64,000 bases of DNA. It comes from Geobacter sp. DSM 9736 (GTDB taxonomy: Bacteria; Desulfobacterota; Desulfuromonadia; Geobacterales; Geobacteraceae). Both the position numbers and the translations under genes were made by a program. Position 1 is the first letter of the stretch. The number at the start of each line of letters is the position of its first letter. The notes under the pieces were generated by a model. The model saw nothing but the letters and a program-made list of their open reading frames with translations. It made no database searches and was not told the DNA's origin. The DNA lies in assembly GCF_900187405.1 (NCBI RefSeq), contig NZ_LT896716.1, positions 1,302,001-1,366,000 on the forward strand, read 5' to 3'. Shown piece after piece: positions 27,901 to 45,066 of this stretch.

Positions 27901-30900
27901 TGCCAATGGAGGCATCGATTCGGTAGCAGTAACTGGCGCCCGGCGAAAGGCCGCTGTCAGTGTAACCGGTTGTGCCGGAGTCTTCCGTCGCAACGTGCGT
28001 CCACACACTTAACGGGTTCGAAGGACCCTCTGTCCGTTCGATGCGAAACGACGTCCCGGGGGTATTTTCTCTCCAGCCCAGATCCACCTTGCCGTAATCA
28101 GGCTGTGGTGCCACCACAAATGGGGCGGGAACCAGAATGTAATTGTTTATCTGCTTCAGAAGTATGTAGTCGGCATTGGTAGAATTCCTTGAGAAACCTG
28201 CTACGAATGCCTCACCTTTATAGTTCGCGGCAATTGAAACCGCTTCGTCCTGCCTGCCGCTCCCGTCATACAGCATCGCACCTAAAAATGTCCCCTCATG
28301 GTCATAGATAAGGGAGAGAATGTCGGAAGTGCCGTCGAACTCGACTCCGGCTCCGCCCCTAGTATTCCCGGCAAGATAGATGTGGCCTGATGAATCCATC
28401 GTCATGGCCGTTAGGAAGTCGTATCCCGGGCGGTTGAAATTCTTCTCCCATAAAATACTGCCGTCTGCAGCCAAATACCGTATGACGTGAAAATCGCTGT
28501 CGGTCGGGCTCACGTAGGTAGTGCCGGCGACGACGATGTTCCCGTCTATCGGGTCCACCTTTACTGCTGCTCCCCAATTGTCAAAACCGGAGCCGCTGCA
28601 CCGCATTTCCCATATACGGCGTTGCGGAGGTGCCGCTGCCCCGGCGTATTTTATCGTATGAATATCCCGGAGGCTTCCTCCGCGTGTCGCGTATCCGGTT
28701 GCATAGACATTCCCGTCAGTATCGATGTCTAGGGAGAGAGCCCTGTCGTCACCCAAACCGCTGTCGAAGGTGTCCGTCCAGAGCAGGGTCCCATCGGCAC
28801 CGCTATATTTACGGGTGAACCAGTCGTAGCTGCCGGCAGGGTCGGCGGAAGTGTCGAAGCTGTAGCCGGTAACTACGATATCTCCGGAAGGATCGAAAGC
28901 AACAGCAGTCGGAACATCGTGGCGACCGCTGTCATAAATGGTAACGGCTCCCCATGGGCGGCTGCCGTCCTGGTTGTACTTGATCACGAACAGGTCGTCG
29001 TTGTTGGAACCGTTTCTGCCGTAACCGACTACGACACTGCTGTTCGACCCGTTCTTAGCCATGGCTATCGCCTTGGCGAGGTCGATTCCGGACTCGGTCC
29101 CGTACTGGTGGTCCCATACAAAGGGAGGGTTCGTATTCGGATCTGTATGCCCCGACGTGTCGAACTTGATAGTGTACAGGTCGTCGCTCTTGTCACTTCC
29201 GCCCGACAGATAGGCGGTTCCTGTCACCAGCAGGTCCCCGGTGGAATCCAGCACCGCTCCCGAAGCCATGTCATTGCCGCCGTCCCCGCTGTCATAGCGC
29301 GCCTTCCACTTGAGAGACTTGTCGCTGCGATCCACCTTGAGCGTGAGATAGTCGAGAGAGAAGGAATCTTCCACCCCTTCTTCTGTCATCTCGCTGTAGC
29401 CTGTCACTACGGGATGATCGTCGGAGCCGACAGTAACTGCAGTGGCCTTGTCTTCGCGGTCATCAACACTGTTGAACCGGTAATTCCATGGGGAGGTATT
29501 GTAGCTCACCACCTTTGTCAAAGCCCTTGCCTCATTGCTGTAATAAGAATCGCCATTTGCTGCGTTGGCCGCACGTACCCGGTAATAATAGTAGTTGTCA
29601 GCGGCCAGGCCGGTATCAGTATAGGTGGTGGTATCGGGAGGCAGGATGGCCGGCACTGTTGCAATATCGGTGAAGGTCCCACCATCCCCCAGCTTCCTCT
29701 GAATGACGAATTTCTCCTCGTTTGAAGCGTTGTCGGTCCAGTTCAGGGTAATGGATGTACCTGAAGCGGCGGTGGCCGTAAGGTCTCCGGGAGCGTTAAG
29801 CGGCCCGAAGTCATACTTGAGTGCACTGAAATCATATCCTGAGACACCGTCTGACCAGGCACCGACGCAGACATTGCGAGCGCTAAGGGCAATGCCCACA
29901 GGGCGGTCGTTCCTTTTCTCACTGCCGTTCCAAATAGCCTTCCATAATATTTTTCCGGTATCTTTCCGGTACTTGATCGTAAGTAAGTCTTCGTCGGTGG
30001 AGACGGTCGTATAGCCGGTAACAAAGACCCCTCCGTCTGCAGCTGGATCAACGGTCACCCCTACCGGGATGTCTGTTGAACCGTTACCGGCGTCAAAGAC
30101 ATTCTTCCAGATGAGTGTTCCGTCGCTTCCTCGGTAACGTGCGGTGAAGAAATCCTGATTGCCGACAAGGGTTGAGGTGTACCCGACGACATAGACATCA
30201 TCGTCGTCATCGATCCAGACTCCCTTTGACTCGTCGTTGCCGCTACCATCGAAGGTAGCTTCCCATACCGGTGTCGGATTCCCCGGGTCATACTTGCCAA
30301 CATAGATGTCAGTATTATTGAGCGGGTTGGTAATGAAACCGGTCACAACAATGTTCCCCTCCGAGTCGATCCTTACGGCCACACCGCGGTCATCACGGCT
30401 TCCTGCGGATGAGTGCCTCCACTCCCTTATGAATGATCTGTCGAAACCATACAGACGGGTGAAAACATCGAAATCCGCGCCAGACTTCGAAGAATAGCCG
30501 GTTACGGCAATTGTTCCTGCACCTGCAGCTATTGCGGAAATCCTGTTGTCATTGTTTGGATAGGCGGCATCGTCAAGAAGCTCGACCCACTCCGGAGCGC
30601 TTGCAACCGGACCGCTCTGCCGGTACTTGATGATCAGGACGTCGTCGCGCTTCGCCCCGTTGGCGGAATAGCCTCCGATGTAGATGTCGCTGCCGCCGTC
30701 CACGGCGATAGCTGTGGCGTAATCGTTTCCGTTGGCCGCTCCATCGTCGAATGTATGTTCCCACAGTTTGGAGCCATCGGCGCCGCTGTACTTGATGGTG
30801 AGGATATCGTAATCGGCACCATTGTTTGTATAGCCGGTTACTATGATATCCCCGGCGGAATCGACTGCTACTGCAGTCGCAACGTCGGAACCCGTACCGC

Positions 30901-31219
30901 CATACGTAACCGGTGCCCACGCAGTACCGGAACCATCCGATTTGAATTTCGCGATGTGGTAGTCGTTACCAGTGACGCCGGTATTGCTGTAACCAACAAC
31001 GATCAGGTTTCCTGCAGGATCAACAGCCATGGCGCGTGCAAGCTGTTGCCCTGCTTTTGCGTCGATCACGGGGAAAGGAGCGAGCAGATCTCCTCCCTTG
31101 CCGTACGCAAAACTTGTGAAGAACAGGGCAAGGATCAACGGAAACAATAGTGAGAAAATAGAAGCGGATCGCTGCAATATTCGCAATCGATTTAAACGGG
31201 TTTTATGTCTTCGGATCAT
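24917..31219 (-). CDS. giant secreted beta-propeller / fibronectin type III repeat protein
   Basis: The 2,100-residue protein has a signal peptide (basic start, hydrophobic LFPLILALFFTSFAYG). Two blocks of SBBP-like propeller repeats (consensus AVAVDSAGDIIVTGYT...YDILTIKY) cover about residues 40-480 and 575-1010. One fibronectin type III domain lies between them and about eleven more follow (I counted repeats of the kind ...ISLSWNQVAGNTGYRIERK). No haem motif, transmembrane anchor or sortase signal is visible; the C-terminus ends FRAGDDTCQ. The ATG at 31219 has GGAGG six bases upstream; a longer frame would run into the cytochrome gene. Forty-one bases separate it from the cytochrome stop, so they are probably co-transcribed. 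Likely extracellular scaffold or adhesin; substrate unknown. Confidence 0.85.
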   Translation of the reverse strand: MIRRHKTRLNRLRILQRSASIFSLLFPLILALFFTSFAYGKGGDLLAPFPVIDAKAGQQLARAMAVDPAGNLIVVGYSNTGVTGNDYHIAKFKSDGSGTAWAPVTYGGTGSDVATAVAVDSAGDIIVTGYTNNGADYDILTIKYSGADGSKLWEHTFDDGAANGNDYATAIAVDGGSDIYIGGYSANGAKRDDVLIIKYRQSGPVASAPEWVELLDDAAYPNNDNRISAIAAGAGTIAVTGYSSKSGADFDVFTRLYGFDRSFIREWRHSSAGSRDDRGVAVRIDSEGNIVVTGFITNPLNNTDIYVGKYDPGNPTPVWEATFDGSGNDESKGVWIDDDDDVYVVGYTSTLVGNQDFFTARYRGSDGTLIWKNVFDAGNGSTDIPVGVTVDPAADGGVFVTGYTTVSTDEDLLTIKYRKDTGKILWKAIWNGSEKRNDRPVGIALSARNVCVGAWSDGVSGYDFSALKYDFGPLNAPGDLTATAASGTSITLNWTDNASNEEKFVIQRKLGDGGTFTDIATVPAILPPDTTTYTDTGLAADNYYYYRVRAANAANGDSYYSNEARALTKVVSYNTSPWNYRFNSVDDREDKATAVTVGSDDHPVVTGYSEMTEEGVEDSFSLDYLTLKVDRSDKSLKWKARYDSGDGGNDMASGAVLDSTGDLLVTGTAYLSGGSDKSDDLYTIKFDTSGHTDPNTNPPFVWDHQYGTESGIDLAKAIAMAKNGSNSSVVVGYGRNGSNNDDLFVIKYNQDGSRPWGAVTIYDSGRHDVPTAVAFDPSGDIVVTGYSFDTSADPAGSYDWFTRKYSGADGTLLWTDTFDSGLGDDRALSLDIDTDGNVYATGYATRGGSLRDIHTIKYAGAAAPPQRRIWEMRCSGSGFDNWGAAVKVDPIDGNIVVAGTTYVSPTDSDFHVIRYLAADGSILWEKNFNRPGYDFLTAMTMDSSGHIYLAGNTRGGAGVEFDGTSDILSLIYDHEGTFLGAMLYDGSGRQDEAVSIAANYKGEAFVAGFSRNSTNADYILLKQINNYILVPAPFVVAPQPDYGKVDLGWRENTPGTSFRIERTEGPSNPLSVWTHVATEDSGTTGYTDSGLSPGASYCYRIDASIGSLNSRKLEKCVTTRLPAPTLDPPTVDSTTHISLSWNQVAGNTGYRIERKIGGGAWSEVATKAAGANSHTDTGLTPGTTHYYRVSTGSAAGFSAASNEQSAVTRPVAPVLNAPTGITNTQMVLGWNSVTGAASYTLQYKVSGGAYANFAGCTSIAGTTCTVTGLAAPNQYFFQVKAVNSGGDSSWSNETSGTAALGVPTLTTPVAAATITSTQMYVAWTNPVVTGANVTSYTLQYKEGAGGSYVDSGCPVGTNLFCTVADLTPNRTYYYRVRANNAAGSSNWSSEVSAKTLLSSPTLSSASGASGTQIDLVWTAVPEASGYTIQQSACTDSANPSTCRGVAASYAAWGNKATGVAATSYSATGLSAGTNYRYQIIATVAGNTSRASNVLHSWTNLPLPALTVTPASSTSLTLDWDARPGETGYAIETGPADTGPWSVIVAAHPMNNVSYTHSSLSLNTQYCYRVQAYSSEAGAPPSVYSEAKCKTTPPDAPVLAAPVVVSGTRVDLSWNNITGNTGYEIEQCVTSDHNQPVTHPLGGCSVLAPKVGADIAATSLTDLTAGYTYRYRVRGTYNVSDYTAWSNAHWVTTTPPAPVMTAPTAVSATTTQLTPTWSNVNGDNGYKLYWKVRSGADCTPGAWNGPIAQALNAVTYNHSGLEPGTFYCYQIVAAGPSGTPDSAASNAVFQTTKPTAPGQPTLSSITATSITVLWSNVTGNSGYNIERKTDASGTWSSVGTVAANVESFPNAGLTPGTLYFYRISANSAAGYSAASPEQSATTTPAVPVVTLSVISAAQIDLSWQVVPGATNYRMERKQGSGAYAALADQAVGYTTSYCGEPYPTVACPSLSPKVVGYQDAGLQESTTYCYRMRAWNSTGGDSAASVEKCGTTSALAVQNLVATAVNSQKVKLDWVPLSCLPEPCDDPDMYEIERLVRDGNWVLLGRTANGTTFTYTDTTGLEPNRRYSYRVRAVKGGDSSPYSSTATVSTAVFRAGDDTCQ

Positions 31220-31260
31220 GAACTTCCTCCGATACTGCATCTGACGTTCACGTCGGTATC

Positions 31261-34200
31261 CTACCAGGGTGTCTTGTCGTTCCAGTAGTTCCCGTTGGGC
31301 CACTGTGCCGGCGGAGCGGAGTAATTGTAAGCAGGGTTGTATCTGCCGACATGGCAGGCAGTCGTTGCATCAGGCGACCCCGCTCCACCGAGCATGCTGC
31401 CGATCGGATAGCCACGGTGCTCATTGCCCGTGCCATGAGGCCTCGAACTGTTGTACTGCTTATCTACTCCCCACGCTTGCCCGCCGGAAACCCTGCCACC
31501 GCGGTGCTTGTAATCGAGGCAATTGGTCTGCATGAGCCGGGGCAATCCGGAGTTATGGGGCTGATGGCATTTCGAGCAGGTAAAGGAATGCTCGGTATTG
31601 GCTCCCCACCCCTTCACCGACTCATGAATCCGATCGATTGTCTTGAATCCTGCCGCACCGTCATTCCTGTTAGTACCGTCGGTCAGGTTCTCCTTCGTGT
31701 GGCAATTCAGGCAGAGCCCGGCAAACTGTGAGTCGCTCTCACTAGGCCTCTTGGCAGCACCTCCCGGAATGCCGTTGGAAGTTCCGAACGTATTACGGTC
31801 GAGTGTGTGCCTGGTAACCGGGGAAGTTCCATAAAAGCCGTATTTATGGGCACCGGTGAATTTTCCCCACGATTTGTCAGTAGCTTCGCTGCCTGACGGA
31901 TCGGGAGGAGGCGCATCCTCCTTGTAGGGAGAGGTCATCCAAGTTCCCTTGAGCAGCGGCACGCCGTATTCCTGGTTGGAGCCAAGGGTGGGGGTTACTC
32001 CGTGAGGATCATGACAGGGTGTACATAGACCGTTTACGGTGGCTGAATATGGAACGATCCTGTACATATCCCCCGCAAGAATGGTCGCGGCAAAAGCATC
32101 GACGGTCAGGACTGTCTCCGTGCTGGAGATGATCTTACGCAACTGACCGCTGTTACTGCCGGTTGCCATCAGAAGGTACGAGTTCCTCCATTTGTTGAGC
32201 GGCCAGTTTTTTCCGCTGTCGGTCAACGTGGTTGCCGTTCCGCCTGTGGCAGTCCCTGTGTCCTTTGCCAGATTGGGAAGTGCTCCCCCGGGCTCCGAAG
32301 CCTTGAGATGACCACCCAGGATGGTTTTGCGGGAATCCCTTTCGGGGAAGCGGGCAGTTGATGCCTTTACCCCCTCGCCGAAGCGCGCAGTGTCCTTGTA
32401 TCCCATGATGGGGGCGGACGCACCGAAAGTTGAGCTATACCCCCAAGGTGTCTTTCCTGTCGGAACCGCGGTACCCGCATTTGCCGTGTTGTGGCAGTCG
32501 AAGCATTGCCCGGCCCCCGCGCCGTATGGATTGACTCCGAGACTGTTCGACGAGGCCTTGTAATCCGCAGTGTAGCCCCCGATGTCCTTTTTGGTTTCTT
32601 TGAGGTTTCCGCCGTTGTTGGTGCCGTTGAACGTGACGTAGCTGGTCGTCACCCCCTGTACCTTGGAGCCGTGTGAGTTGTGGCAATCGAAGCATCCAAC
32701 ATTGGTGCTCCCGTTCCGGCTGTTGGGAATGCCTTCATCCACGCCGGTTGCAGGATCCCATCCGCCACTATTGCCCACGGCATTGCCATGGGCGGAGAAG
32801 GATTTCGGAGCTATCTTTTTCGCGGCCGTAGCCGTTGCCGAATATTTTCCCCAGTTTGTTGTGCCAGTCTGGGAGTAGCGGGCAGCGATACTCTGCAGGT
32901 CCCAGGCGTACTGCCGCGGCGTCTTGCAGTCGTTGAAGGGGGTGCTGTAGTTGTTCTGATCGCTGTGACATGAGATGCAATGGACCGTGACCTTATCTAC
33001 CTGGTTCCGTTCTTCGCCGGTTCCCATCTTGACGGCTACGAATTTTACAGCCGTTGCCCTCCCTTCCACAGAAGAGATCTCCCGGTACACCGGAGGCCGC
33101 AGGTTGGGCCCGTATATCACGAGATCAACGGTGTCGTTCCTGACCGAGGTGTAGGTCTTGTAGTTATACCCGGTGTGGTATTGATTATCGATCAACCCCT
33201 CCGGAGTGGCCTCCCAGTGGCATTGGTAACAATGCCTGTTGTTCAGCTCGACTCCCTGAACATGGTGGGAGTTCGACTTCATCTGGCCGATGATGTCCAT
33301 TCGCTTCCCGACGGTACCGGAGTGGCACTTCACGCAGTCGCGCGGCAGACCGAAGGCAGTGTGCTTCGGGATCGGCTTTGTGCTGGTATGGCAACTGTCG
33401 CAGTTCTGCTTGCTGGCATGACTGTCGGTGAAACGGTGCTCGTGGCAAATGGTGCAGCGTCTGTTGATGTTGTGCCCATCCCCGGAATTGCGCGTGAAAT
33501 GCTTGCTGCTCGCGGAGTGGCACACGTTGCAAATGCCGTCGAAGGGCTCCGTCTTTTTCGCGTAGTAGGCTCCCGTATCTTCGGTAAACGTGACAACTGC
33601 CTGGGTCTTCGGCCTTCCGAACTTCCCGTCGGTCGTCGTGGCCACCTTTTTCTGAATCATGTAGAGGTTGGCGTCTCCGTGGGGATCGTGGCAGTCCCAG
33701 CAGAACTTGCCCCCTTTCCAGGTCCCCAGGTAATTGCCTGTGCCGTCTTTGGCCCAGCCGCCGCTCTCCTTGAAGGCACGGTAGTGCTTGTACCCGAAAT
33801 GGCCGCCGGATGCTCTCGCCTTTCTGGGTTTTATGAATCCGGTGCCCGGGTCATACCCCAGGGAGTACTTCATGGGGTTGTCCGACGGAGCGATGTGGCA
33901 ACTTGTGCACTGACCGTTGCTGTCGTCATCGTGGCACTGGAGACAGACACCCATCATCATGTACTGGTTTTTCACATCGGCTATTTGTTCCCTGGTCCAG
34001 ATGCCCGAATTGGTATTGTGCCCCTTGTGCGTTCCGCCCGGAAAGAGGCCGGTATCGGAATCATGGCAGGTGAGCGCCGTACAGTTGTCCAGAGCGGTGT
34101 GTGATGGATGCCTGATCTCGGTGGAAGTGTTGCGGTACCTGAACAGTATTCCGGCTGCCGTCGCCTGTGGAGACAAGGACTGGGTCTGCCCTACATGACA

Positions 34201-37200
34201 GGAGATGCATTCTAGGTCGGTGCGCTCCATGTGGCAGTACACGCATTCTTTTTCGAATCGCCGGTCGAACTGCCCGTGCATTCTCAAACGGTACGGATTC
34301 GAGGGATCGCTGTGAAGCACGCTGTTGTCATGGCAGTACCAGCAGGGATTTCCGGGAAAGCTAGCGGCAGGATTTCTGGAAAAAGGATAGGACCCTGTGT
34401 AGGCGGCCGAGGAGTACCTTCCATGACCGCTCGTTTCCCACTGGGTGAGATTTATCTTTCCCTGGGTGCCGTTGAAGGCATCGAAGTCGTCGACGTCAGG
34501 ACCGGTAATGCCATGACATGAAAGACAGGTGACGGCGCTGCCTACGGAGCCGCCCCATACCGGGTCGACGCCGCTAGTATGGCAGGTTGTGCCGGAACAG
34601 CTTCTGGTAATCGGATCATAATCGGCACCGGGCATATCCTTGAAATCAACGTCTTTCTTCTTGTTGACATGGTATGCGGCATCTATGTGCGCCACTTCCC
34701 CCATTCCTCCGGGAGGTATGCCGTCTTTGTGGCAGCTTATGCAATCACCTTTAATCGTCTTCGCATGGCAAATGTCGCAGGTGAAATTGGTTTGGGCATG
34801 GCGGGGGTGAGAGTTGGCACGCGCAGTGCCGGGTCCCTGGTTTGGAAACATCGGCAGCGAACCTATCCACTCCTGCCCCGCGGGCCATCTGTAGGCCGTC
34901 TGATTGCCGAATTTTGCCGGGAGATTCCATACTCTTCCCGTAGGATCCCCCGGGTGAACCTTATTGTCATGACACCCGGCATTGTTGCATGAGCCGGTGG
35001 GATGACCGTGACAGCTGTTGCATTCGGTCTTCGGTGCATTCCATGGAAACGGGCGCACTACATCAGGGTCGATGGTACCGTCGCTGTGGCAGTACACGTT
35101 ATCGCAGACTTTCTCTGTGTAGCTCGGTTTGTCCCGGCTCGGAATCTCCCATTTTGCAGCGATCTTTACATCCTTGACTCCATTCAGGTGCCGGGCTCTG
35201 TCCTTGATGTCCCCCGCAGCATCCATTGTGGCGTCATGACAGTAATAGCACGGGTACTTCCTGATCCACTGAGGCCCTACCAGCCTGTGGTGGCCGTCGG
35301 CATTCATGGTGATGTCGGGGGTGCAGAACTCCCTGGCGCTGCTCCAGTTTCCTTGGACAACCCCGCAGTTCCCCTCGGAAGTGTCGGACGTCCTTCCTTT
35401 GTGGCAGGAATAGCACTTCATGGTGATATCCGTGTCCGACCATTTCACGCTGAACGTCGGCTCGCCTCCGCGCGCATCGCTGTGACAATACGTAGTGCAG
35501 CTCTTGCTGCCGCTGTTATAGCTGCCTCCATTGTTAAACGAAATGTCCTTGGTCCTGTTGGCGTGACGGCTCCTGTCGACGATCTTCCCCGTACCGTCAA
35601 TAGTGCCGCTGTGACAGCGGTCGCAGCTGGATACGTAGATGGTGCTGGCGGTATGCTTGCCATGCCTGCCGCTAAGTTCTTCGGCAGAAGCAGAATCGCC
35701 ATGACATGATGCGCAGGTGAGCGGGGCTCCTCCCCAGGTCATCGTCCTGAAATTTGCAGTGCTGTTGTCAAAACGAAGGCCATTGGAATGACAGTAGACG
35801 GTGCTGCATTGCTGGTCCGATGAGGTGTAGACGGCCCCGTCTCCGGCCACAGCGGAAAATGCCACATCCCGGTTTCTGTTCAGATGAAGGGTAGAATAGG
35901 GGCGAAGCCTGCTGGCTTGCGACAGGTCCACAGTCTGCCTGTGACATCTCGCACACCCGGTGGAGTCGGCAATTCCGCCTCCCCAGACATGGGACCGATG
36001 GCTGTTGGCTGTAACGGTCCCGGCCCCGCCGTTTGCGTAGCTAGGTTCGCCTGCCACGCTCGTGAAGGCGGAAAAGGTTCCGTCGGGAAGACTGTTTGCG
36101 CCGTGGCAACCGTTGCACGTAAAAGTACGCGAAGAGTACCAGCCGGCTGAACTCATGTCCCAGAACTGGTTGGCTTGCATCCCGGTGCTGTGACAGTAGG
36201 CGGTGGTGCAGCTTCCCGAGCCGGAGACATTGATTCTGCCTGCTCTGGCTCCCGAATAGTTCTTGATCCCGTTGCCGTGGTTGGCACGGTTTGAGATTAT
36301 TCGGCTGCCACTTACCGTGCTGGCGTGACAGTCGGTACAGGTATACCTGTTACCAGCCCCGAGGGTAGAATAATTATCCAGGTGCCTCCTGTGTTTACCG
36401 CTGGCTATGGGAGCAGCGCTTGCGGTATCGCCGCCATGACAGCCGGTACAGTCGACAGGCAGGATACCACCCCATTGTGCAGAACCGCCGAAATGGCAAC
36501 CGATATTGCTGCAAGTTTTGGTGCCTGGGGTCCAGGTGGCAGCTCCCGCCTTGGCTGGATCGAAATTTACGTCAACAGCGCTGTTAACATGTTTCAGACT
36601 GCCGGCTTTAATTTCCGTGCCGCTCGTGGTTGTCTGAACATGACAGGCCCCGCAGCTGCCTGCCCCTCCTGATGTGTGGCTTTCATGGCTGTTGGCCCGT
36701 ACACTACCGGCTCCACTGTTGGCATAGTTAGGCTCGCCTGCACGGCTTGTGAAGGCGGGGGAGCCGTCGCTGCCATGACATCCCCGGCAATCGAACGTTG
36801 CGGCTGAAGTCCAGGAGGCAGCGTTCAGGTTCTTTTTCGAGCCCTTGCCGTCGCTGTGGCAGTAGGAGTTGGAACAGACACGGGTGGCACCGTTGTAGCC
36901 GGCGCTCCCTCCGGCTCTTGCGCCGGAATAATCGACCAGTCCATTGGCATGGCGAGCCGGATTCAAGATAGTGTAGTTATTGCTGACTGTGCGGGCATGA
37001 CAATCGGCACAGCCGAATGGTGCACCAAGGGATTCGTTGGCACCAGGGCTTATGTGCGACCCGTGCCTGCCGGTCAGTATCGGAGTACCGCTCGCTTCAT
37101 CGCTTCCATGACAGGCGCTGCAACTGCCACCCATCGCCGAAAAAGCTCCCCTCCCCCCTTCGTTATGAGGATGACAGATGCTGCATGCATTCGCCGGTGC

Positions 37201-38277
37201 ATCCGCAAGGCGGTGAGCACCCGGGTACCCGGCACTTTCGGGGACAGTGTGGCAGGCCTGACACACCCCTGTTCCGGCGGCGTTTTTGTATGGGCGCGTG
37301 CCTGCGGAAGTGTACTGGAACATAACCTTACTGTTGACTACCTTGCCGGCAGGCGATGATATGTTCATGTAACGTCTGACAAGGAATACGTTGGGTCTTG
37401 TCCCGTCGGCCTCGTCTACATGCCCGCCGTGGCAATCTGCGCACTGGACATTCTGGCCGCGCCCATCATGGTTTTGCCGTAAATGGCAGTTTGTGCAGAT
37501 ATTGACGGAGCCTGCCGAACTTCCACGCATATCGGTTCGAAGGAGAGCACCGGCAGAAGGTTGCAGGCCGTAGTAGCTGGTAGCGTTGTCGAATGTAGAG
37601 CTGTTTGAATCAGTGTAGTGAACTCCATGACAGGTAGTGCAAAGTAGAGTACCGTTCTTTAACGGCAGAGCAGAGGTGGGATTCGAGGGGTTGGCATTGA
37701 GCGGAGGGACATTGAACTCCGCCGGCTTCTGCCTTACCAGAGATTGCGCACCAGTGTAATTGAAGTTGACAGGATGGGTGCCCAGGCTGTGGTCAGTGGT
37801 GCCTCGGGACCTGTGGCAATCGAGACACAGCTGGTCCCTGTCGATTTTAGCCCTAAGGAAAGGCCTGTCTTTATAGGTGTGGAGATCATGGCAGCGCGGG
37901 CAGCCAAGACCGGAAAGGGTCTTTGTGGAGCGGAGCTCGGTACTGGCCGGTTCTTCCGCCCCCGCATCAGGTCGGATTTGTGGGCCCGACCAGTTGTGGG
38001 ATGTCTGGTAGCGAAGTCCAGGCTGTCCTGTGTACCCACTGAATGGGGTAGCAGCGTCGGCGAGAGTAAACGGTTTGCGTCCGGCCAGGGGAACTCCCGG
38101 CCGGTGGCACGTGAGGCAGGCATTGGTAAGCCCGGTAGATCCCAGGGTCATGTGCACCGAATGGCAGTTGGAGCAGGTGTAGCCATTGGTCAGATTATGG
38201 GGGGGCTCGACCCCCGCACCATTTCGATAGAAAACCAGAATGAGAATTATCGCGAAGGTGGTCAGAAATCTGTTCAC
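31261..38277 (-). CDS. giant multihaem c-type cytochrome (CX4CH/CXXCH repeat family)
   Basis: By hand count this ~2,338-residue protein has 42 canonical CXXCH haem-attachment motifs, eight CX4CH motifs (for example CSNSYCH, CSTVYCH, CNNAGCH) and one CX3CH (CTTYCH), so 42-51 potential haems. From about residue 420 a repeated unit alternates CXXCH with a variant motif, as in the Geobacter CxxxxCH/CxxCH family. A signal peptide starts at MNRFLTTFAIILILVF. GTG at 38277 follows an AGGGACA stretch and begins the signal peptide; an in-frame ATG at 38322 is the alternative. Some sections contain WYCHDNS and WDCHDPHGD, typical of NrfA/doubled-CXXCH-like modules. It should be matured by cytochrome c assembly in the periplasm and act in extracellular or outer-surface electron transfer. 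Confidence 0.92.
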   Translation of the reverse strand: MNRFLTTFAIILILVFYRNGAGVEPPHNLTNGYTCSNCHSVHMTLGSTGLTNACLTCHRPGVPLAGRKPFTLADAATPFSGYTGQPGLRYQTSHNWSGPQIRPDAGAEEPASTELRSTKTLSGLGCPRCHDLHTYKDRPFLRAKIDRDQLCLDCHRSRGTTDHSLGTHPVNFNYTGAQSLVRQKPAEFNVPPLNANPSNPTSALPLKNGTLLCTTCHGVHYTDSNSSTFDNATSYYGLQPSAGALLRTDMRGSSAGSVNICTNCHLRQNHDGRGQNVQCADCHGGHVDEADGTRPNVFLVRRYMNISSPAGKVVNSKVMFQYTSAGTRPYKNAAGTGVCQACHTVPESAGYPGAHRLADAPANACSICHPHNEGGRGAFSAMGGSCSACHGSDEASGTPILTGRHGSHISPGANESLGAPFGCADCHARTVSNNYTILNPARHANGLVDYSGARAGGSAGYNGATRVCSNSYCHSDGKGSKKNLNAASWTSAATFDCRGCHGSDGSPAFTSRAGEPNYANSGAGSVRANSHESHTSGGAGSCGACHVQTTTSGTEIKAGSLKHVNSAVDVNFDPAKAGAATWTPGTKTCSNIGCHFGGSAQWGGILPVDCTGCHGGDTASAAPIASGKHRRHLDNYSTLGAGNRYTCTDCHASTVSGSRIISNRANHGNGIKNYSGARAGRINVSGSGSCTTAYCHSTGMQANQFWDMSSAGWYSSRTFTCNGCHGANSLPDGTFSAFTSVAGEPSYANGGAGTVTANSHRSHVWGGGIADSTGCARCHRQTVDLSQASRLRPYSTLHLNRNRDVAFSAVAGDGAVYTSSDQQCSTVYCHSNGLRFDNSTANFRTMTWGGAPLTCASCHGDSASAEELSGRHGKHTASTIYVSSCDRCHSGTIDGTGKIVDRSRHANRTKDISFNNGGSYNSGSKSCTTYCHSDARGGEPTFSVKWSDTDITMKCYSCHKGRTSDTSEGNCGVVQGNWSSAREFCTPDITMNADGHHRLVGPQWIRKYPCYYCHDATMDAAGDIKDRARHLNGVKDVKIAAKWEIPSRDKPSYTEKVCDNVYCHSDGTIDPDVVRPFPWNAPKTECNSCHGHPTGSCNNAGCHDNKVHPGDPTGRVWNLPAKFGNQTAYRWPAGQEWIGSLPMFPNQGPGTARANSHPRHAQTNFTCDICHAKTIKGDCISCHKDGIPPGGMGEVAHIDAAYHVNKKKDVDFKDMPGADYDPITRSCSGTTCHTSGVDPVWGGSVGSAVTCLSCHGITGPDVDDFDAFNGTQGKINLTQWETSGHGRYSSAAYTGSYPFSRNPAASFPGNPCWYCHDNSVLHSDPSNPYRLRMHGQFDRRFEKECVYCHMERTDLECISCHVGQTQSLSPQATAAGILFRYRNTSTEIRHPSHTALDNCTALTCHDSDTGLFPGGTHKGHNTNSGIWTREQIADVKNQYMMMGVCLQCHDDDSNGQCTSCHIAPSDNPMKYSLGYDPGTGFIKPRKARASGGHFGYKHYRAFKESGGWAKDGTGNYLGTWKGGKFCWDCHDPHGDANLYMIQKKVATTTDGKFGRPKTQAVVTFTEDTGAYYAKKTEPFDGICNVCHSASSKHFTRNSGDGHNINRRCTICHEHRFTDSHASKQNCDSCHTSTKPIPKHTAFGLPRDCVKCHSGTVGKRMDIIGQMKSNSHHVQGVELNNRHCYQCHWEATPEGLIDNQYHTGYNYKTYTSVRNDTVDLVIYGPNLRPPVYREISSVEGRATAVKFVAVKMGTGEERNQVDKVTVHCISCHSDQNNYSTPFNDCKTPRQYAWDLQSIAARYSQTGTTNWGKYSATATAAKKIAPKSFSAHGNAVGNSGGWDPATGVDEGIPNSRNGSTNVGCFDCHNSHGSKVQGVTTSYVTFNGTNNGGNLKETKKDIGGYTADYKASSNSLGVNPYGAGAGQCFDCHNTANAGTAVPTGKTPWGYSSTFGASAPIMGYKDTARFGEGVKASTARFPERDSRKTILGGHLKASEPGGALPNLAKDTGTATGGTATTLTDSGKNWPLNKWRNSYLLMATGSNSGQLRKIISSTETVLTVDAFAATILAGDMYRIVPYSATVNGLCTPCHDPHGVTPTLGSNQEYGVPLLKGTWMTSPYKEDAPPPDPSGSEATDKSWGKFTGAHKYGFYGTSPVTRHTLDRNTFGTSNGIPGGAAKRPSESDSQFAGLCLNCHTKENLTDGTNRNDGAAGFKTIDRIHESVKGWGANTEHSFTCSKCHQPHNSGLPRLMQTNCLDYKHRGGRVSGGQAWGVDKQYNSSRPHGTGNEHRGYPIGSMLGGAGSPDATTACHVGRYNPAYNYSAPPAQWPNGNYWNDKTPW

Positions 38278-38394
38278 TGTCCCTATTCTCCGTTGATGAG
38301 TGGCCACAGCTACGAGTTCCATAGCTTTGGCAAGGGGAATGCCCTTTGTTTATCGGAGTTTCGGGATGGTTTCTTAAGATTTTTTTACCTTATA
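38277..38394 (-). promoter_or_regulatory. candidate -10 box and structured mRNA leader of the cytochrome gene
   Basis: Reading leftward, TATAAG (38394-38389) is a possible -10 box, though no good -35 is visible. The following ~105-base leader can fold as three helices: CTCCG/CGGAG (38358-38354 with 38292-38288) closing the element, AAGGG/CCCTT (38346-38342 with 38336-38332) and an AGCTA/TAGCT helix extended by CCA/TGG (38330-38322 with 38312-38304). The closing helix ends about ten bases before the GTG, near the ribosome-binding site. The conserved blocks of GEMM riboswitches, common before Geobacter cytochrome genes, are not matched. Confidence 0.4.
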
Positions 38395-39950: not shown

Positions 39951-40454
39951 TCAGACGCCTGTAAGGTAAGGGCGGTTCGCTGGCCATAGCCCCATGACCT
40001 GACGCATGACGGCTATTTCTCCCACATGATAGGCCATATGATCAGCTGCGATAAGAACCTCACGGTATATCGTGTAGTCGGGGGCGTGAGGGAGGGGAGC
40101 AAGCAGGTCGCACCCCTGGTCGGATACGATCGCCAGCAATGCGGCAAGGTCTGCTGATACCGCCTCCACCGACTGCCGCCAGCGCCGCTCATCCGCGACC
40201 TCTTCAGGCCGGGGCCGGTACCCTTCCGGATAAGGAGGGGACTGGTGCTGCGGGTTCCTGATGAATTCAAGGATGTCCCACTGGGCGATCCGGATATGCT
40301 CCACGAAATGCCAGAAGGAATAGGGGGTATTCGGCGGCTTAATGTTGATCTGTTCCAGGGGGAAGTCGGCAACAGCCTCCCTGAAAGCCATGTGGGCGTT
40401 TTGACTGTCGAGAAGGGCCAGCAGTTCATGACGGATCAAATCATCATGCTTCAT
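39951..40454 (-). CDS. DinB-superfamily metal-dependent protein
   Basis: The 167-residue protein is a four-helix DinB/DUF664-type fold: SFWHFVEHIRIAQWDILEFI near residue 50 supplies one metal-ligand histidine, and ADHMAYHVGEIAVMRQ near the end supplies others. Such proteins include thiol transferases acting with bacillithiol or mycothiol and the N-terminal domain of EgtB. GAGG precedes the ATG at 40454 (a longer frame begins at 40496). It is divergent from egtD, separated by about 150 bases, so a thiol-linked role is attractive but unproven. It is not the SOS polymerase DinB. Confidence 0.83.
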   Translation of the reverse strand: MKHDDLIRHELLALLDSQNAHMAFREAVADFPLEQINIKPPNTPYSFWHFVEHIRIAQWDILEFIRNPQHQSPPYPEGYRPRPEEVADERRWRQSVEAVSADLAALLAIVSDQGCDLLAPLPHAPDYTIYREVLIAADHMAYHVGEIAVMRQVMGLWPANRPYLTGV

Positions 40455-40606
40455 GGGAACCTCTTTCTCCGATTGCAGTTTCTTTAGTAAATACAACCGA
40501 ATCCTCTTTTGTCAAAGTCGGCCATGTTTGACTGCGAAAACAGATATCTTATACTTTTCCAATGTCCAACACCGCACCAAGTACCGGCAGTAGACAAGGA
40601 GCCAAC

Positions 40607-41674
40607 ATGCAGATCTCAACGACGGGAGCGTCGAGGCTTCGATGCGATGTCCTGAAGGAGGCGCTCTCTGCGTCCGAACCGGTCATACTTCACCAGCAGG
40701 GGGGACACGAGCCTCTTGTTGATTTCGCCAAGTCAGTTGCATGTGGCCTGGGAAGTCAGCCGCGCCGCATTGAAAGCCGATTTCTCTATGACACACGGGG
40801 CAGTGCGCTTTTCGAGATGATAACCCGTCAACCTGAGTATTATCTTACGCGTATCGAAGCCTCGATACTGGCAGAAGCAGCCCCGCGCTTGAGAAGCATC
40901 ACCGGCCCGGTTTCCATTCTCGAACTGGGCTCCGGAAGCTCCGAGAAGACCGGGTTTCTGATCGATGCGTGGCTGGCGCGAGATGGGGTAGCCACCTATA
41001 TCCCTGTAGATGTTAGCGAAAGCGCCCTTCGCCAGGCATGCTCATGGATAGCGGTGCGATCTCCGTCTATCCAGGTGGCTGGGATCCATGGTCAGTACGA
41101 ACAGGCCATATCATGGTTGAACCAGGCATCTCCTGCAATGGCGGTATTTCTCGGCAGCACCATAGGAAATATGGATGAAACGGAGATGAGCCGCTTTCTC
41201 CGCCTGATAAGCTCGGCCATGGGAAGGGATGACTTTTTCCTCATCGGCTTCGACCTGGTTAAAGACTCGAAGGTTATTGATGCCGCGTACAACGATGCTG
41301 CCGGAGTGACCGCCCGATTCACGAAGAACCTGTTCGTTCGCATGAACCGCGAGCTTGGATGTGAAATAGAATCCTCTACGATTGAGCACCATGCTAAGTA
41401 CTGCGAAGAACAGGAGCGCGTGAAGATCCATGCCCGGTTCACGAGGAGCCACAAAATCGACATTATGCCCCTCGGAACCAGTTTCTTTGTGGGCAGCGGC
41501 GAAGTTATACGCACGGAAATCAGCCGCAAGTTCAGGCTTGGGACTCTCATTCCCCTATTGATGTCACATGGGCTGAAAACGGTGGAAGTCTTTACGGACT
41601 CTCGGGAATGGTTCGCCTTGCTCCTGCTCCGTAAAGCAGGAGAAGGCCCGTGGGCTTCAAAGGGTAGTGCATGA
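40607..41674 (+). CDS. egtD: L-histidine N-alpha-methyltransferase (EgtD)
   Basis: EgtD transfers three methyl groups from S-adenosylmethionine to the amino group of histidine, giving hercynine, the first step to ergothioneine. The 355-residue protein has the family start FLYDTRGSALFEMITRQPEY (with YYLTRIEASIL next), the SAM loop SILELGSGSSEKTGFLIDA, the acidic VDVSESAL, FLGSTIGNM and the EgtD-specific FDLVKDSKVIDAAYNDAAGV. An N-terminal extension of ~30 residues precedes the core. The ATG at 40607 has AGGAG six bases upstream; the frame can start at 40562. Its stop overlaps the ATG of the next gene by four bases (ATGA), implying translational coupling with the Mo/W-desulfurase fusion. No egtB, egtC or egtE is present. 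Confidence 0.92.
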   Translation: MQISTTGASRLRCDVLKEALSASEPVILHQQGGHEPLVDFAKSVACGLGSQPRRIESRFLYDTRGSALFEMITRQPEYYLTRIEASILAEAAPRLRSITGPVSILELGSGSSEKTGFLIDAWLARDGVATYIPVDVSESALRQACSWIAVRSPSIQVAGIHGQYEQAISWLNQASPAMAVFLGSTIGNMDETEMSRFLRLISSAMGRDDFFLIGFDLVKDSKVIDAAYNDAAGVTARFTKNLFVRMNRELGCEIESSTIEHHAKYCEEQERVKIHARFTRSHKIDIMPLGTSFFVGSGEVIRTEISRKFRLGTLIPLLMSHGLKTVEVFTDSREWFALLLLRKAGEGPWASKGSA

Positions 41675-44600
41675 AAATGAATGCGAGGGAGCAACGCAGC
41701 GGTCTGTGTGGCATTTGTCCTGCCGGCTGCTTCGTCACGGTTACCGTTGAACACGATCGGCTTGTGGCCATTGAACCGCAAGCGGATCACCCTTTCGGCA
41801 TGATCTGCCGGATCGGCCGCCACGCTCCGGAGATAGTTCACGATCCAAATCGGCTTTTACACCCTATGCGTCGAACGGGACCGAAAAGTGCCGGCTCCTT
41901 CGAAAAAATCAGCTGGGACGATGCCTACGCGATCATCACCGAAAACTTGATGAAGACAAGGGAACAGTACGGTCCGGAAGGGGCGGCGATCTACACAGGC
42001 AGGGGCAGCTTCGACATGGCCCTCTGCGACGTCTTCCAGCCTGCGGGAGTCGCAGTATCATCCGCTTCCAGCGTACTCTTCCCTTTCGGGTCCCCCAACA
42101 CCCTCGGAGTCGGTGCTCTCTGTTACGTTTCCTTCGCAATGATCGCTCCACATGTCACCATGGGAGAGATGCTGATCACAATGGAGACGGACCTTGAGCA
42201 GGCCGAATTGATCCTGCTATGGGGAGCCAATCCGGCCACAGACTCCCCTCCCCTCGCCCATCTCCAGATCATAAAGGCAAAAGAACGGGGCGCGAGGGTG
42301 ATCTCCATCGACCCCCGCCGCGCAGGCACCGCCGTTGAAGCAGATGCCCGCTGGGTTCCGATACGGCCCGGGACAGATGGAGCCCTAGCCCTGGGAATGA
42401 TCCAGGTACTCATCGAAGAAGAACTCTACGATGAGAAGTTCGCCGGTGACTGGACGGTCGGTTTCGAGGAGTTGGCCACGTACGTGCAGCATTTTCGCCC
42501 TGAAACGGTGGAACGTATAACCGGGGTCGCCGCAGAGACCGTTCGGGAACTGGCCCGTTTGGTGGCCACCAGGCGCGGTGTCTGTCCGGTGATGTATACG
42601 GGCCTGGAATACTCCGACAGCGGCGTCCAGGCGATACGCGCCGTCTTTACCCTGTTCGCACTTGCAGGGCAGCTTGACGTTCCGGGAGGACTGCTTTTCC
42701 GGATGAAGGAGAATACATTCCCCCAGAACCGGACCCGCCTCGTGCCTAACCCCGACATCAGGAAGGCGCTCGGCCGAGACCGCTTCCCCCTCTACAGCGC
42801 CTACCGGGAAGAATCTCATGCCATAGCTCTTCCAGATGCAGTGCTTCGCGGCAAGCCATATCCGGTGCGGTCATTGATCATACTTGGAGGATCAATCTGC
42901 ACCGCATGGCCTCAGCCGCGTGTTTGGTGCAAAACCCTTGAAGCGCTCGATTTCCTCGTAGTGATCGACCGGTACCCTACAGCGGATTCGGCGTATGCCG
43001 ATATCGTGCTGCCTGCAGCCACCGGATTCGAAATCACCTCCTATATGCGATTCGGACCGCTCTTCAAGATCCGCGAACCACTGGTCCCACCGCAAGGGGA
43101 AGCACGCAGCGACTTCCAGATCTTGGCCGGCCTGGCGCAGCACCTTGGATATGGGCACATGTACCCACGGAACGAGGAGGAACTTCTCGCCTTTGCCCTT
43201 GAAGGGAGCGGCTTCACACTGGAGGAGGTACGAAACGCCGGTGGAGAAATCCAGCTTCCCACTGCCATGATGCAGTACCGGAAATGGGAAAAGGGGCTGC
43301 TGCGTCCCGACGGCAAGCCGGGGTTCGACACGCCCAGCGGCAAATTCGAGATAGCTTCTTCCATTCTGGCCGAATACGGGTACGACCCGCTCCCGGTGTA
43401 TTCAGAGCCGGCGGAGGGCCCCCTCGCCGCTCCCGAAACGGCACTCACCTTCCCCTTGGTATTTAATTCGGGAGCCCGCACCCACTACGATTTCAGGAGC
43501 CAGCATCATGGGGTGCCCCCTTTGGCCGCTCACCACCCCGAGCCGATCCTGACGATCAACACGCATGATGCCGCGAGCCGAAACATCTCCGACGGAGATC
43601 GTATCCGCGTCAAAACTCCACGGGGAGAAGCCGTCTTCACCGCATTTACTACATCCGGCATCGTCCGGGGTGCCGTAGACGCCGCCATGGGTGGGGGAGG
43701 CCCCCTGGGTAATGAAGCATGGCGAACGTGCAACGTGAATGAACTCACGGACCTCGGCAGATTCGACCCCATATCGGGGTTCCCGATCTACAAGGCGCTC
43801 CTGTGCCAGGTGGAAAAGATTACTGAAGATAGAGTCATGGAACGCTTGAATCCTCCCGTGGAAGAAGAGCGCAAGGAGGCGCGGGTGCGGGTGCAAGCGA
43901 TGCGGCAGATCTACCTTGACCACAACGCCACGACCCCCGTTGCCCCGGAAGTTCTTGAAGCCATGCTCCCCTACCTCACCGACTGTTGCGGCAATCCTTC
44001 GAGCATCCATAGCTCGGGAATACGGGCGCGGGATGCGGTGGAAGCGGCGCGGCGCATCATTGCTCAGGCACTCAACTGCACCGCCCGCCGGATTGTCTTC
44101 ACCGGTAGCGGCTCGGAGGGGAACAGCCTCGCCATTCTCGGCGCCACCAGAGGTTCGAACAGTAGCCGCCGTCACCTCGTCACCAGTTCCATCGAGCACC
44201 CGGCAGTGCTTGCCCCCTTCCGGCTGCTGGAAAGAAGCGGATACGATCTTACTCTCCTGCCGGCTACACGTGAAGGACTGGTAGCACCAGAAGAACTGGC
44301 CCGTGCGATACGTCCCGACACACTCCTCGTCTCAGTAATGCTCGCTAACAACGAAACGGGAGCGGTTCAACCGATAGGGGAATTGGCCTGCATTGCCCAT
44401 AGTGCAGGTGCGCTCTTTCATTGCGACGCAGTGCAGGCATTCGGGAGAATCGATGTGGATGTCGCGGCCCTGGGGGTCGACCTGCTGACGGTATCGGCCC
44501 ACAAGCTCCATGGGCCGAAGGGAGTCGGAGCGCTGTTTTCCCGCCGTGAAGTGTCTCTGGTGCCGATTGTCGCAGGGGGGGGGCAGGAAGAAGGCCTTAG

Positions 44601-45066
44601 GGCGGGAACGGAAAATGTTGCCGGAATAGCCGGATTCGGAACTGCCGTCGAGATGGCAATGGAGCGCCTGCACCGGCAGGAGGGGAAGCGCCTGATACAA
44701 TTGCGGGACCGGCTTGAGGAGGAAATACGTACACTTGTTCCCGGTGCCCGACGTAACGGCCCCCGCGATCTACGCCTCCCCAATACCCTGAACATGCACC
44801 TGCCGGAGATCAGGGGCGAATCGCTAGTTCTCATGCTCGACCGCAAGGGGATCTGCCTTTCTGCAGGTTCAGCCTGCAAATCGGGTAATCCTGATCCCTC
44901 CCATGCCCTTCTCGCCATGGGTCTGACTCCCGCTGAAGCACATTGCTCCATCAGGCTTTCACTTGGCTATGGAACCTGTGAGGAGGACATCCACCGTGCG
45001 ATAGTTGCTTTCAGCGAGGTGATGTCCGAAGCCAGCAGCATGGTCAGGTTCATGGCGTGCCGGTAA
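41671..45066 (+). CDS. molybdopterin/tungstopterin oxidoreductase fused to a cysteine desulfurase (probable metallopterin-dependent ergothioneine synthase)
   Basis: This 1,131-residue protein joins two enzymes in one frame. Residues 1-~720 form a DMSO-reductase-family enzyme: a [4Fe-4S] motif C13-x2-C16-x3-C20-x25-C46, a likely metal-ligand cysteine C151 in GSPNTLGVGALCYVS, and bis-MGD-binding segments LLWGANPATDSPP, ISIDPRRAGTAVEADARWVP and IRPGTDGALALGM. It most resembles acetylene hydratase / polysulfide reductase types but lacks the hydratase Asp after the second cluster Cys (Pro17 here). A charged linker (~721-743) leads to a NifS/IscS domain (744-1131): DHNATTP, PLP lysine K945 in SAHKLHGPKG, GLRAGTEN and the persulfide cysteine C1069 in SAGSACKSG. 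Coupled to egtD, it probably passes cysteine sulfur to hercynine at the metallopterin site. A similar two-module ergothioneine synthase was reported from Caldithrix abyssi (memory). No Tat signal: cytoplasmic. Confidence 0.88.
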   Translation: MKMNAREQRSGLCGICPAGCFVTVTVEHDRLVAIEPQADHPFGMICRIGRHAPEIVHDPNRLLHPMRRTGPKSAGSFEKISWDDAYAIITENLMKTREQYGPEGAAIYTGRGSFDMALCDVFQPAGVAVSSASSVLFPFGSPNTLGVGALCYVSFAMIAPHVTMGEMLITMETDLEQAELILLWGANPATDSPPLAHLQIIKAKERGARVISIDPRRAGTAVEADARWVPIRPGTDGALALGMIQVLIEEELYDEKFAGDWTVGFEELATYVQHFRPETVERITGVAAETVRELARLVATRRGVCPVMYTGLEYSDSGVQAIRAVFTLFALAGQLDVPGGLLFRMKENTFPQNRTRLVPNPDIRKALGRDRFPLYSAYREESHAIALPDAVLRGKPYPVRSLIILGGSICTAWPQPRVWCKTLEALDFLVVIDRYPTADSAYADIVLPAATGFEITSYMRFGPLFKIREPLVPPQGEARSDFQILAGLAQHLGYGHMYPRNEEELLAFALEGSGFTLEEVRNAGGEIQLPTAMMQYRKWEKGLLRPDGKPGFDTPSGKFEIASSILAEYGYDPLPVYSEPAEGPLAAPETALTFPLVFNSGARTHYDFRSQHHGVPPLAAHHPEPILTINTHDAASRNISDGDRIRVKTPRGEAVFTAFTTSGIVRGAVDAAMGGGGPLGNEAWRTCNVNELTDLGRFDPISGFPIYKALLCQVEKITEDRVMERLNPPVEEERKEARVRVQAMRQIYLDHNATTPVAPEVLEAMLPYLTDCCGNPSSIHSSGIRARDAVEAARRIIAQALNCTARRIVFTGSGSEGNSLAILGATRGSNSSRRHLVTSSIEHPAVLAPFRLLERSGYDLTLLPATREGLVAPEELARAIRPDTLLVSVMLANNETGAVQPIGELACIAHSAGALFHCDAVQAFGRIDVDVAALGVDLLTVSAHKLHGPKGVGALFSRREVSLVPIVAGGGQEEGLRAGTENVAGIAGFGTAVEMAMERLHRQEGKRLIQLRDRLEEEIRTLVPGARRNGPRDLRLPNTLNMHLPEIRGESLVLMLDRKGICLSAGSACKSGNPDPSHALLAMGLTPAEAHCSIRLSLGYGTCEEDIHRAIVAFSEVMSEASSMVRFMACR

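Follow-up and report, generated by a model that had tools for sequence, protein, structure and literature searches.

The window, i.e. the whole 64,000-nucleotide stretch of the Geobacter sp. DSM 9736 genome that was analysed, carries a locus that very likely encodes an oxygen-independent pathway to ergothioneine, composed of the methyltransferase EgtD and a metallopterin-dependent ergothioneine synthase (MES); this confidence concerns the two proteins only and excludes any role of the DinB-fold protein encoded beside them. The MES pathway itself is already known, and is here found in a Geobacteraceae host. A two-gene, oxygen-independent route had been proposed in a sequence-only reading of the same DNA, and it is supported by the module order of the fusion enzyme, the presence of the residues named for a characterised MES, an intact EgtD, the co-occurrence of MES with EgtD and the lack of a full-length EgtB. 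The features of the locus, in window positions, are the following:

39951 to 40454, minus strand: DinB/YfiT-like (STL superfamily) gene, 167 aa, divergent from egtD (DinB_2 E 2.6e-10)
40455 to 40606, no strand: intergenic region of the divergent dinB/egtD gene pair
40607 to 41674, plus strand: egtD, 355 aa, ATG at 40607 and stop TGA at 41672-41674
41671 to 45066, plus strand: MES fusion gene, 1131 aa
41671 to 43824, plus strand: metallopterin module forming the N-terminal part of MES (residues 1-718), with FeS cysteines C13, C16, C20 and C46
42121 to 42123, plus strand: codon of C151, predicted Mo/W ligand, counterpart of C. abyssi C153, present in 34/34 covering rows
43909 to 45042, plus strand: C-terminal cysteine desulfurase module, NifS/IscS-like, residues 747-1124
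44503 to 44505, plus strand: codon of K945, PLP lysine, counterpart of C. abyssi K952, present in 35/35 rows
44875 to 44877, plus strand: codon of C1069, persulfide cysteine, counterpart of C. abyssi C1074, present in 34/34 covering rows
45058 to 45060, plus strand: codon of C1130, relay cysteine in the C-terminal motif [RHQ]FxxC[RK], counterpart of C. abyssi C1135, present in 34/34 rows reaching the end

AAGGAG lies a short way ahead of the egtD start codon, and egtD and the MES gene share the bases ATGA (41671-41674), i.e. the four-base overlap described earlier from the sequence; the divergent DinB gene mentioned there is equally real. A longer open frame starting with the ATG at 40562 is present as well. 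Scanning the region between dinB and egtD for promoters and terminators gave a single sigma-70-like match (plus strand, 40528-40555) against 2.6 expected, which is chance level, and no gene for a partner subunit of the Mo module was found among the window neighbours scanned. Loss of function or ongoing decay of these genes in the host seems to us scarcely credible: egtD, MES and dinB are all open with their invariant residues present, and the host genome is a single contig of 3,957,683 bases. What speaks for decay comes from two relatives, one (G017) having lost nearly all of the egtD-through-MES stretch together with half of dinB, the other (G028) showing frame breaks in MES and dinB, possibly draft sequencing errors.

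Concerning EgtD, the protein scores 295.3 bits against TIGR03438, above the curated cut-off of 290.9, matches Pfam Methyltransf_33 with an E value of 2.3e-91 and aligns to the M. smegmatis EgtD structures with an E value of 3e-55. The residues aligned to Y39, F47, Y56, T163, N166, Y206, T213, E282 and S284, whose roles are described in PMC8593015, are identical in 9/9 cases; judged from its sequence, the window EgtD is intact at the histidine site. The aerobic EgtB/EgtD pathway employs the same methyltransferase family, but differs in that the window genome is devoid of a full-length EgtB and in that sulfur is here expected from the fused desulfurase and the metallopterin, oxygen-free. The absence of the aerobic EgtB, previously claimed from the local sequence, extends to the whole genome, where the search returned no full-length EgtB and only one match of 53.5 bits, restricted to profile positions 272-412 of 413.

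The MES product displays the Pfam order Molybdop_Fe4S4, Molybdopterin, Molydop_binding and Aminotran_5, the last covering residues 747-1109 with an E value of 1.5e-76. The solved structures nearest to the Mo module are acetylene hydratase 2e7z (E 1.1e-60) and thiosulfate reductase 2vpw (E 1.2e-58), which share its sequence family and cofactor-site pattern, whereas the window enzyme additionally carries the fused desulfurase. The metal-ligand cysteine of acetylene hydratase, which we take to be Cys141, aligns with C151, while the aspartate that follows its second FeS cysteine, a catalytic residue, aligns with window P17 (Pro in 27, Ser in 5 and Ala in 3 of 35 rows). The desulfurase module matches IscS/NifS-type chains of the PDB and reaches 450.2 bits against TIGR03402, below the equivalog cut-off of 530.75.

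The multiple alignment was built with the window protein, loci L002-L029, six loci from the genome search and three unfused modules, leaving out L085, L086, L092, L095 and L096, which identical scores or the length of their contigs marked as duplicates. Since neither L017, whose frame breaks near residue 960, nor L023, of whose three pieces one was used, is complete, there are 34 covering rows; alignment A1 excludes both. Both MES modules are matched by 28 of the 80 retained loci and, apart from the frame-broken L017 and L023, the other MES rows, 32 in number, are full-length and open, hence the fusion of a Mo/W enzyme with a complete cysteine desulfurase, as originally read, is no assembly accident.

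The C. abyssi metallopterin-dependent ergothioneine synthase, to which the sequence-only reading had pointed, is indeed described in PMC9516567. The window enzyme resembles it in module order, in length (1131 versus about 1136 residues) and in being co-encoded with egtD, as well as in its FeS set (C14, C17, C21 and C48, corresponding to window C13, C16, C20 and C46), its Mo/W-ligand, persulfide, third conserved and penultimate C-terminal cysteines and its PLP lysine, the counterparts being assigned by motif and position from PMC9516567, without direct alignment. Those of the nine residues named in that work are conserved in every covering row, 34/34 for the FeS cysteines and the others and 35/35 for K945, and window C1092 corresponds to the conserved C1097. 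C1069, singled out earlier as the persulfide cysteine, thereby finds its match in C. abyssi C1074. The differences are the Geobacteraceae-type host and the divergent DinB gene beside egtD; the main text of PMC9516567 mentions neither Geobacter nor DinB, and its Table S1 may include Geobacter relatives. Among the matches listed in the open-access literature, none reports MES in the Geobacter group or ergothioneine in a Geobacter relative, PMC9874932 naming ergothioneine, in the part available, only in a general list of thiols.

Qualitatively, the pathway would proceed as follows. EgtD would trimethylate histidine to hercynine, while the PLP-dependent desulfurase of MES would take sulfur from cysteine and form a persulfide on C1069. 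The persulfide would then pass to C1130 in the C-terminal tail and from there to the Mo/W centre held by C151, whose sulfido group would sulfurate C2 of the hercynine imidazole, yielding ergothioneine. Reaction and residue requirements are transferred to the window protein from the MES of other organisms studied in E. coli: according to PMC9516567, that host produced ergothioneine when it expressed C. abyssi MES and was given hercynine, C153 was required for activity, and the sulfur relay depends on C1135, a further cysteine close to the C-terminus. For the metal centre, the chemistry is a proposal in that work too. The relay cysteine C1130 is a refinement absent from the sequence-only reading. 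An AlphaFold model of the full-length fusion, obtained with 27 close rows, is poor (mean pLDDT 64.4, pTM 0.42, tail 1124-1131 below 50) and was therefore left unused for relay distances.

A listing of egtD beside such fusions, which the sequence-only reading had suggested, places EgtD inside the same locus in 24 of the 28 fusion loci; the remaining four (4/4) have it at another place in their genomes. Of the 58 relatives, 11 have MES, in one case with a broken frame, and EgtD occurs in the same 11, a count that excludes a match in G057 (E 4.3e-4, 19.6 bits) and includes G030 (289.9 bits, just under the cut-off). In a phylum sample of 395 genomes EgtD is found in 14/14 MES genomes (the MES of G137 containing one stop) versus 7/381 others; 26 genomes of this sample match the Mo module, and the 12 that match it alone were not counted as MES. 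A fusion that sulfurates a different heterocycle or a methylated histidine-like compound, with EgtD linked in some other way, is very unlikely given EgtD in 28/28 fusion genomes and in every MES genome of the phylum sample, the four MES from different sources that yielded ergothioneine in E. coli (PMC9516567) and the key residues kept in the window enzyme. In its favour, PMC9516567 raises the possibility of heterocycle sulfuration by further Mo enzymes, and unfused relatives of the Mo module with 42-50% identity exist in 12/395 genomes, none of these with an EgtD match. The three unfused modules looked at, L087-L089, lack C119, H274 and H383 as well as a desulfurase; L087 and L088, found among the relatives, lie beside URO-D and DUF1638 genes, L088 also beside nitrogenase-like genes. 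Such EgtD-free settings and neighbours indicate that the Mo-module family has other jobs. L087, L088 and L089 were considered as a split MES and ruled out on the same grounds, i.e. genomes without an EgtD match and, for the first two, these neighbours.

As to EgtB, six of the seven EgtD-positive, MES-free genomes of the phylum sample have a profile-spanning EgtB-like gene, three of these over the cut-off. When 24 MES genomes were searched, 6 also showed EgtB-like ORFs of ~700-760 residues that cover the greater part of the profile, scoring 166-180 bits and thus under the cut-off, so the two gene types do not strictly exclude each other. Among the EgtB-like matches, that of G255 lies in two stretches. 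It should be noted that gene absences weigh less than presences, because drafts and metagenome bins are part of all genome samples. The named strains that carry both MES and EgtD belong to Geomonas, Citrifermentans, Pelotalea and Geomesophilobacter; Geotalea toluenoxydans, a draft, has a frame-broken MES.

The DinB-fold protein co-occurs with MES. An orthologue occurs in 9/14 MES genomes of the phylum sample versus 0/381 others, and in 6/10 MES genera versus 0/236 others, genus counts that lessen but do not abolish the non-independence of genomes, which the Fisher values ignore. In 7 of the 9 genomes dinB lies on a different contig from MES, and this co-occurrence even on another contig indicates that its link to the pathway goes beyond mere adjacency. 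Among the relatives it is present in 9/11 MES genomes, one (G028) in two pieces and scored present, versus 0 intact copies in 47 genomes, fragments in G017 (one with a stop) being scored absent. Conversely, dinB is missing from 5/14 MES genomes of the phylum sample, 2/11 among the relatives and 18/21 reached through other loci (of this last set G458 shares coordinates with G192 and is probably the same genome); since many MES genomes lack it, the protein is not essential to the pathway.

H53, H139 and H143 are invariant in the 18 DinB rows and are inferred to form a metal-binding triad; 14/18 members carry the DinB_2 domain and 4/18 the MST family, and beyond two weak single rows no NCBIfam family was found. 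No sequence relative emerged from the PDB by single-sequence or profile search, the only row being a DnaA chain (E 0.66). The predicted fold gives Z up to 14.1 with superfamily members among the matches listed, where the mere arrangement of a helical bundle can give about 13; all Foldseek E values are above 0.001. It appears to resemble mycothiol S-transferase 8f5v (Z 12.6, 14% identity) and BstA 5wk0 (Z 10.6, 10% identity), which have the histidine triad and single domain in common with it, but unlike them this family accompanies MES, and BshC was absent from its carriers (17/17 tested).

From fold, histidine triad and co-occurrence, the DinB-fold protein probably uses ergothioneine. More specifically, it is a candidate ergothioneine-dependent S-transferase that would, as a metal-dependent enzyme, join ergothioneine to electrophiles in the way its relatives do with mycothiol or bacillithiol, some MES anaerobes then using ergothioneine as a working detoxification thiol; we put this forward tentatively, as a proposition somewhat short of an even chance. 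No ergothioneine-dependent S-transferase and no link between dinB and ergothioneine or MES were found in the open-access literature searched, and according to the review PMC10950700 no transferase is known for ergothioneine. A protein unrelated to ergothioneine, e.g. a general metalloprotein or a transferase acting with a different thiol, whose gene lies near egtD by chance, is a serious contender, doubtful rather than unlikely. DinB-type proteins are very diverse (PMC5815605), the loci where it was seen adjacent to egtD are all from Geobacteraceae (G107 showing a looser linkage), the unlinked neighbourhoods share no theme in the seven loci compared (L123 and L125 left out; L127 also holds MES), and there are the many MES genomes from other loci without dinB; against mere proximity stand the phylum, genus and relatives counts above, the missing BshC and the breakage of dinB in G017, where egtD-MES is deleted.

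EgtB, OvsA and SenA have the predicted fold as well, in their N-terminal domains (4x8b Z 11.8, 8vig Z 11.0, 8k5i Z 11.2), and some EgtB/OvsA/SenA structures were solved with hercynine or trimethylhistidine. Such a fold would suit a protein acting in hercynine synthesis or handling, e.g. by binding it, instead of in S-transfer, which we find unlikely, as many MES genomes have no dinB and C. abyssi MES worked in E. coli without a DinB protein (PMC9516567).

If the S-transferase reading is true, ergothioneine would take the place held by mycothiol or bacillithiol in other bacteria. What ergothioneine does in oxygen-free life is a question raised in PMC9516567, for which the MES- and EgtD-bearing strains of the four genera named above offer hosts, and the DinB-fold protein, as a candidate ergothioneine-using enzyme under anoxia, would make the anaerobic role testable.

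A two-gene, oxygen-independent ergothioneine pathway in Geobacter sp. DSM 9736 was proposed in the sequence-only reading, and both the observation and its interpretation hold, as judged from domains, key residues and co-occurrence with EgtD. The gene of the metallopterin-dependent ergothioneine synthase (MES) follows egtD with the described four-base overlap, an ATGA shared by the egtD stop and the fusion start, and the divergent DinB gene is present as described:

40607-41674, plus strand: egtD, L-histidine methyltransferase family, 355 aa
41671-45066, plus strand: MES fusion gene, 1131 codons
39951-40454, minus strand: DinB-type gene (DinB/YfiT-like), 167 residues

The starts of egtD and the DinB-type gene are 152 bases apart, and the host genome is one contig of 3,957,683 bases. 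Upstream of the locus lies an ORF for a giant multiheme cytochrome of 2353 residues (31261-38322, minus strand; 42 CxxCH motifs, Geobacter-type cytochrome repeats), whose end overlaps by 43 bases a 2128-residue ORF (24917-31303, minus strand) with fibronectin type III domains and zero CxxCH motifs. At the MES 3' end, ten loci (L003, L019, L020, L023, L028, L084, L090, L091, L093 and L094; 12 of 42 by tblastn including two duplicates, one member domain-scanned) carry a small convergent gene for a PQ-loop membrane protein, in whose place the window has a VTT-domain gene. The PQ-loop protein might be a transporter, or its position might be plain synteny.

The fusion itself was read as an acetylene-hydratase-like Mo/W module joined to a cysteine desulfurase, with which Pfam domains and nearest solved structures agree: residues 12-709 form an FeS/molybdopterin oxidoreductase closest to acetylene hydratase (E 1.1e-60) and thiosulfate reductase (E 1.2e-58), and residues 747-1109 an aminotransferase class V domain closest to IscS/NifS-type desulfurases. 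The Caldithrix abyssi MES, named in that reading as being of this design, is indeed described in PMC9516567, with the same module order. That paper assigns C14, C17, C21 and C48 to the FeS cluster, makes C153 the metal ligand and K952 the PLP lysine, and lists C1074, C1097 and C1135 as conserved cysteines; in E. coli, changes at C153, K952, C1074 and C1135 gave zero ergothioneine, and a change at C1097 merely halved it. Paired by motif and position from that description, not by direct alignment, the window counterparts are C13, C16, C20, C46, C151, K945, C1069, C1092 and C1130. All nine are kept in the 34 covering rows of the fusion alignment (K945 in 35/35), and the penultimate cysteine lies within a [RHQ]FxxC[RK] tail in each of the 34 rows extending to the C-terminus.

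The window EgtD passes the curated TIGR03438 cut-off (295.3 against 290.9 bits), and its residues 42-340 align to the M. smegmatis enzyme. Nine histidine-site residues named in ligand contacts by PMC8593015 (Y39, F47, Y56, T163, N166, Y206, T213, E282 and S284) are all identical, with the numbering offset fixed by taking the WFYD motif tyrosine as Y39.

A scan of genome contigs matched both fusion modules in 28 of the 80 loci kept. The suggested survey of genomes with egtD beside such fusions placed EgtD inside the fetched locus in 24/28, and elsewhere in the genome for the remaining four. Among the 58 relatives the fusion occurs in 11 (one frame-broken) and EgtD, with strong scores, in exactly the same 11; the 395-genome phylum sample has 14 fusion and 21 EgtD genomes, with EgtD in 14/14 fusion carriers. 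Six of the seven EgtD genomes lacking the fusion have an EgtB-like gene spanning the profile (three above cut-off); the remaining one, G102, a genome of 67% completeness, is congeneric with a fusion carrier. The claimed absence of EgtB from the host was borne out, the whole-genome search yielding not a full-length protein, only a single match of 53.5 bits over profile positions 272-412. Outside the host genome MES/EgtB exclusion is not strict, since an EgtB-like ORF of ~700-760 residues (161-180 bits) occurs in 6 of 24 MES genomes searched (G004, G005, G022, G030, G032 and G054). Judged by length these ORFs are OvoA-like, perhaps OvoA-type ovothiol synthases, and the same search gave no match of that size in the host. 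Among the papers listed by our literature searches, none placed the MES pathway in a Geobacteraceae-type host; the genome list in Table S1 of PMC9516567 may do so.

In a tree of 29 rows (the window, 26 full-length fusions and two unfused modules), the window MES belongs to a seven-member group, supported at 100/100, whose other rows are all from Geobacteraceae. Several phyla are intermingled among the 27 fusions: Thermodesulfobacteriota, Pseudomonadota, Myxococcota, Planctomycetota, Gemmatimonadota, Actinomycetota and methanogens. Many of these rows come from metagenome bins and may be mislabelled. Exchange of MES between lineages is likely. Of the 395 genomes in the phylum sample, 12 carry the closest unfused Mo modules (42-50% identity), and none of the 12 has an EgtD match. 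Two unfused modules, L087:1059-3215 and L088:7744-9891, are 46-47% identical to the MES Mo module, also in genomes without an EgtD match; both adjoin DUF1638 and URO-D genes, L088 also lying near two nitrogenase-like genes, and they probably represent a Mo/W enzyme family with a different job. At 39 first-module positions every covering fusion has one and the same residue, and L087 and L088 each have another; among them C119, H274, H383 and H613 are, from this comparison, candidate substrate or relay residues, at which the accessible part of PMC9516567 reports no mutants.

Nine of the 11 relatives with MES carry the DinB orthologue (eight intact copies, one split in two); it is linked to egtD in eight of these nine and unlinked in G054, and no intact copy was found in the 47 relatives without MES. 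One of these 47, G017, is a natural loss of the pathway with a dinB remnant left: compared with Geomonas paludis (L003), its locus (L107) is missing almost the whole stretch from egtD to the end of MES, and a second gap removes half of dinB. In the phylum sample all nine genomes with the orthologue are among the 14 MES carriers (0/381 others; by genus, 6/10 against 0/236). Since DinB and MES lie on different contigs in 7/9 of these carriers, close linkage does not explain their pairing there. Among EgtD carriers, DinB accompanies 9/14 with MES versus 0/7 without (Fisher P 0.007, genomes treated as independent). The gene is nevertheless accessory, because just 3/21 MES genomes reached via other loci carry it.

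Across 18 DinB rows H53, H139 and H143 are invariant, a pattern which we take to be the superfamily metal site, as are H21, N37, Y45, W48, R55, Q58, D60 and W92. Structural matches of the predicted model, which is good (pLDDT 88.9), include YfiT at Z 12.8, a mycothiol- and Zn-bound mycothiol S-transferase at Z 12.6, and EgtB at Z 11.8, scores that helical bundles can reach by arrangement; Foldseek returned no match at E < 0.001. In Firmicutes the thiol used by superfamily members is bacillithiol and in actinomycetes it is mycothiol, according to PMC5815605 and PMC10950700; a table in the latter gives the transferase for ergothioneine as "unknown". The partner thiol here is unlikely to be bacillithiol, because BshC was found in 0/17 DinB carriers tested, host included (1/38 genomes searched overall), by a search that did recover it in three control genomes, including Bacillus subtilis. 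The simplest reading, to which we give somewhat less than an even chance, is that the DinB protein may be an ergothioneine-dependent S-transferase. The pathway itself has been described before and is seen here in a Geobacteraceae-type bacterium, and the DinB-fold protein co-occurring with MES, which goes beyond the sequence-only reading, is a lead worth pursuing.
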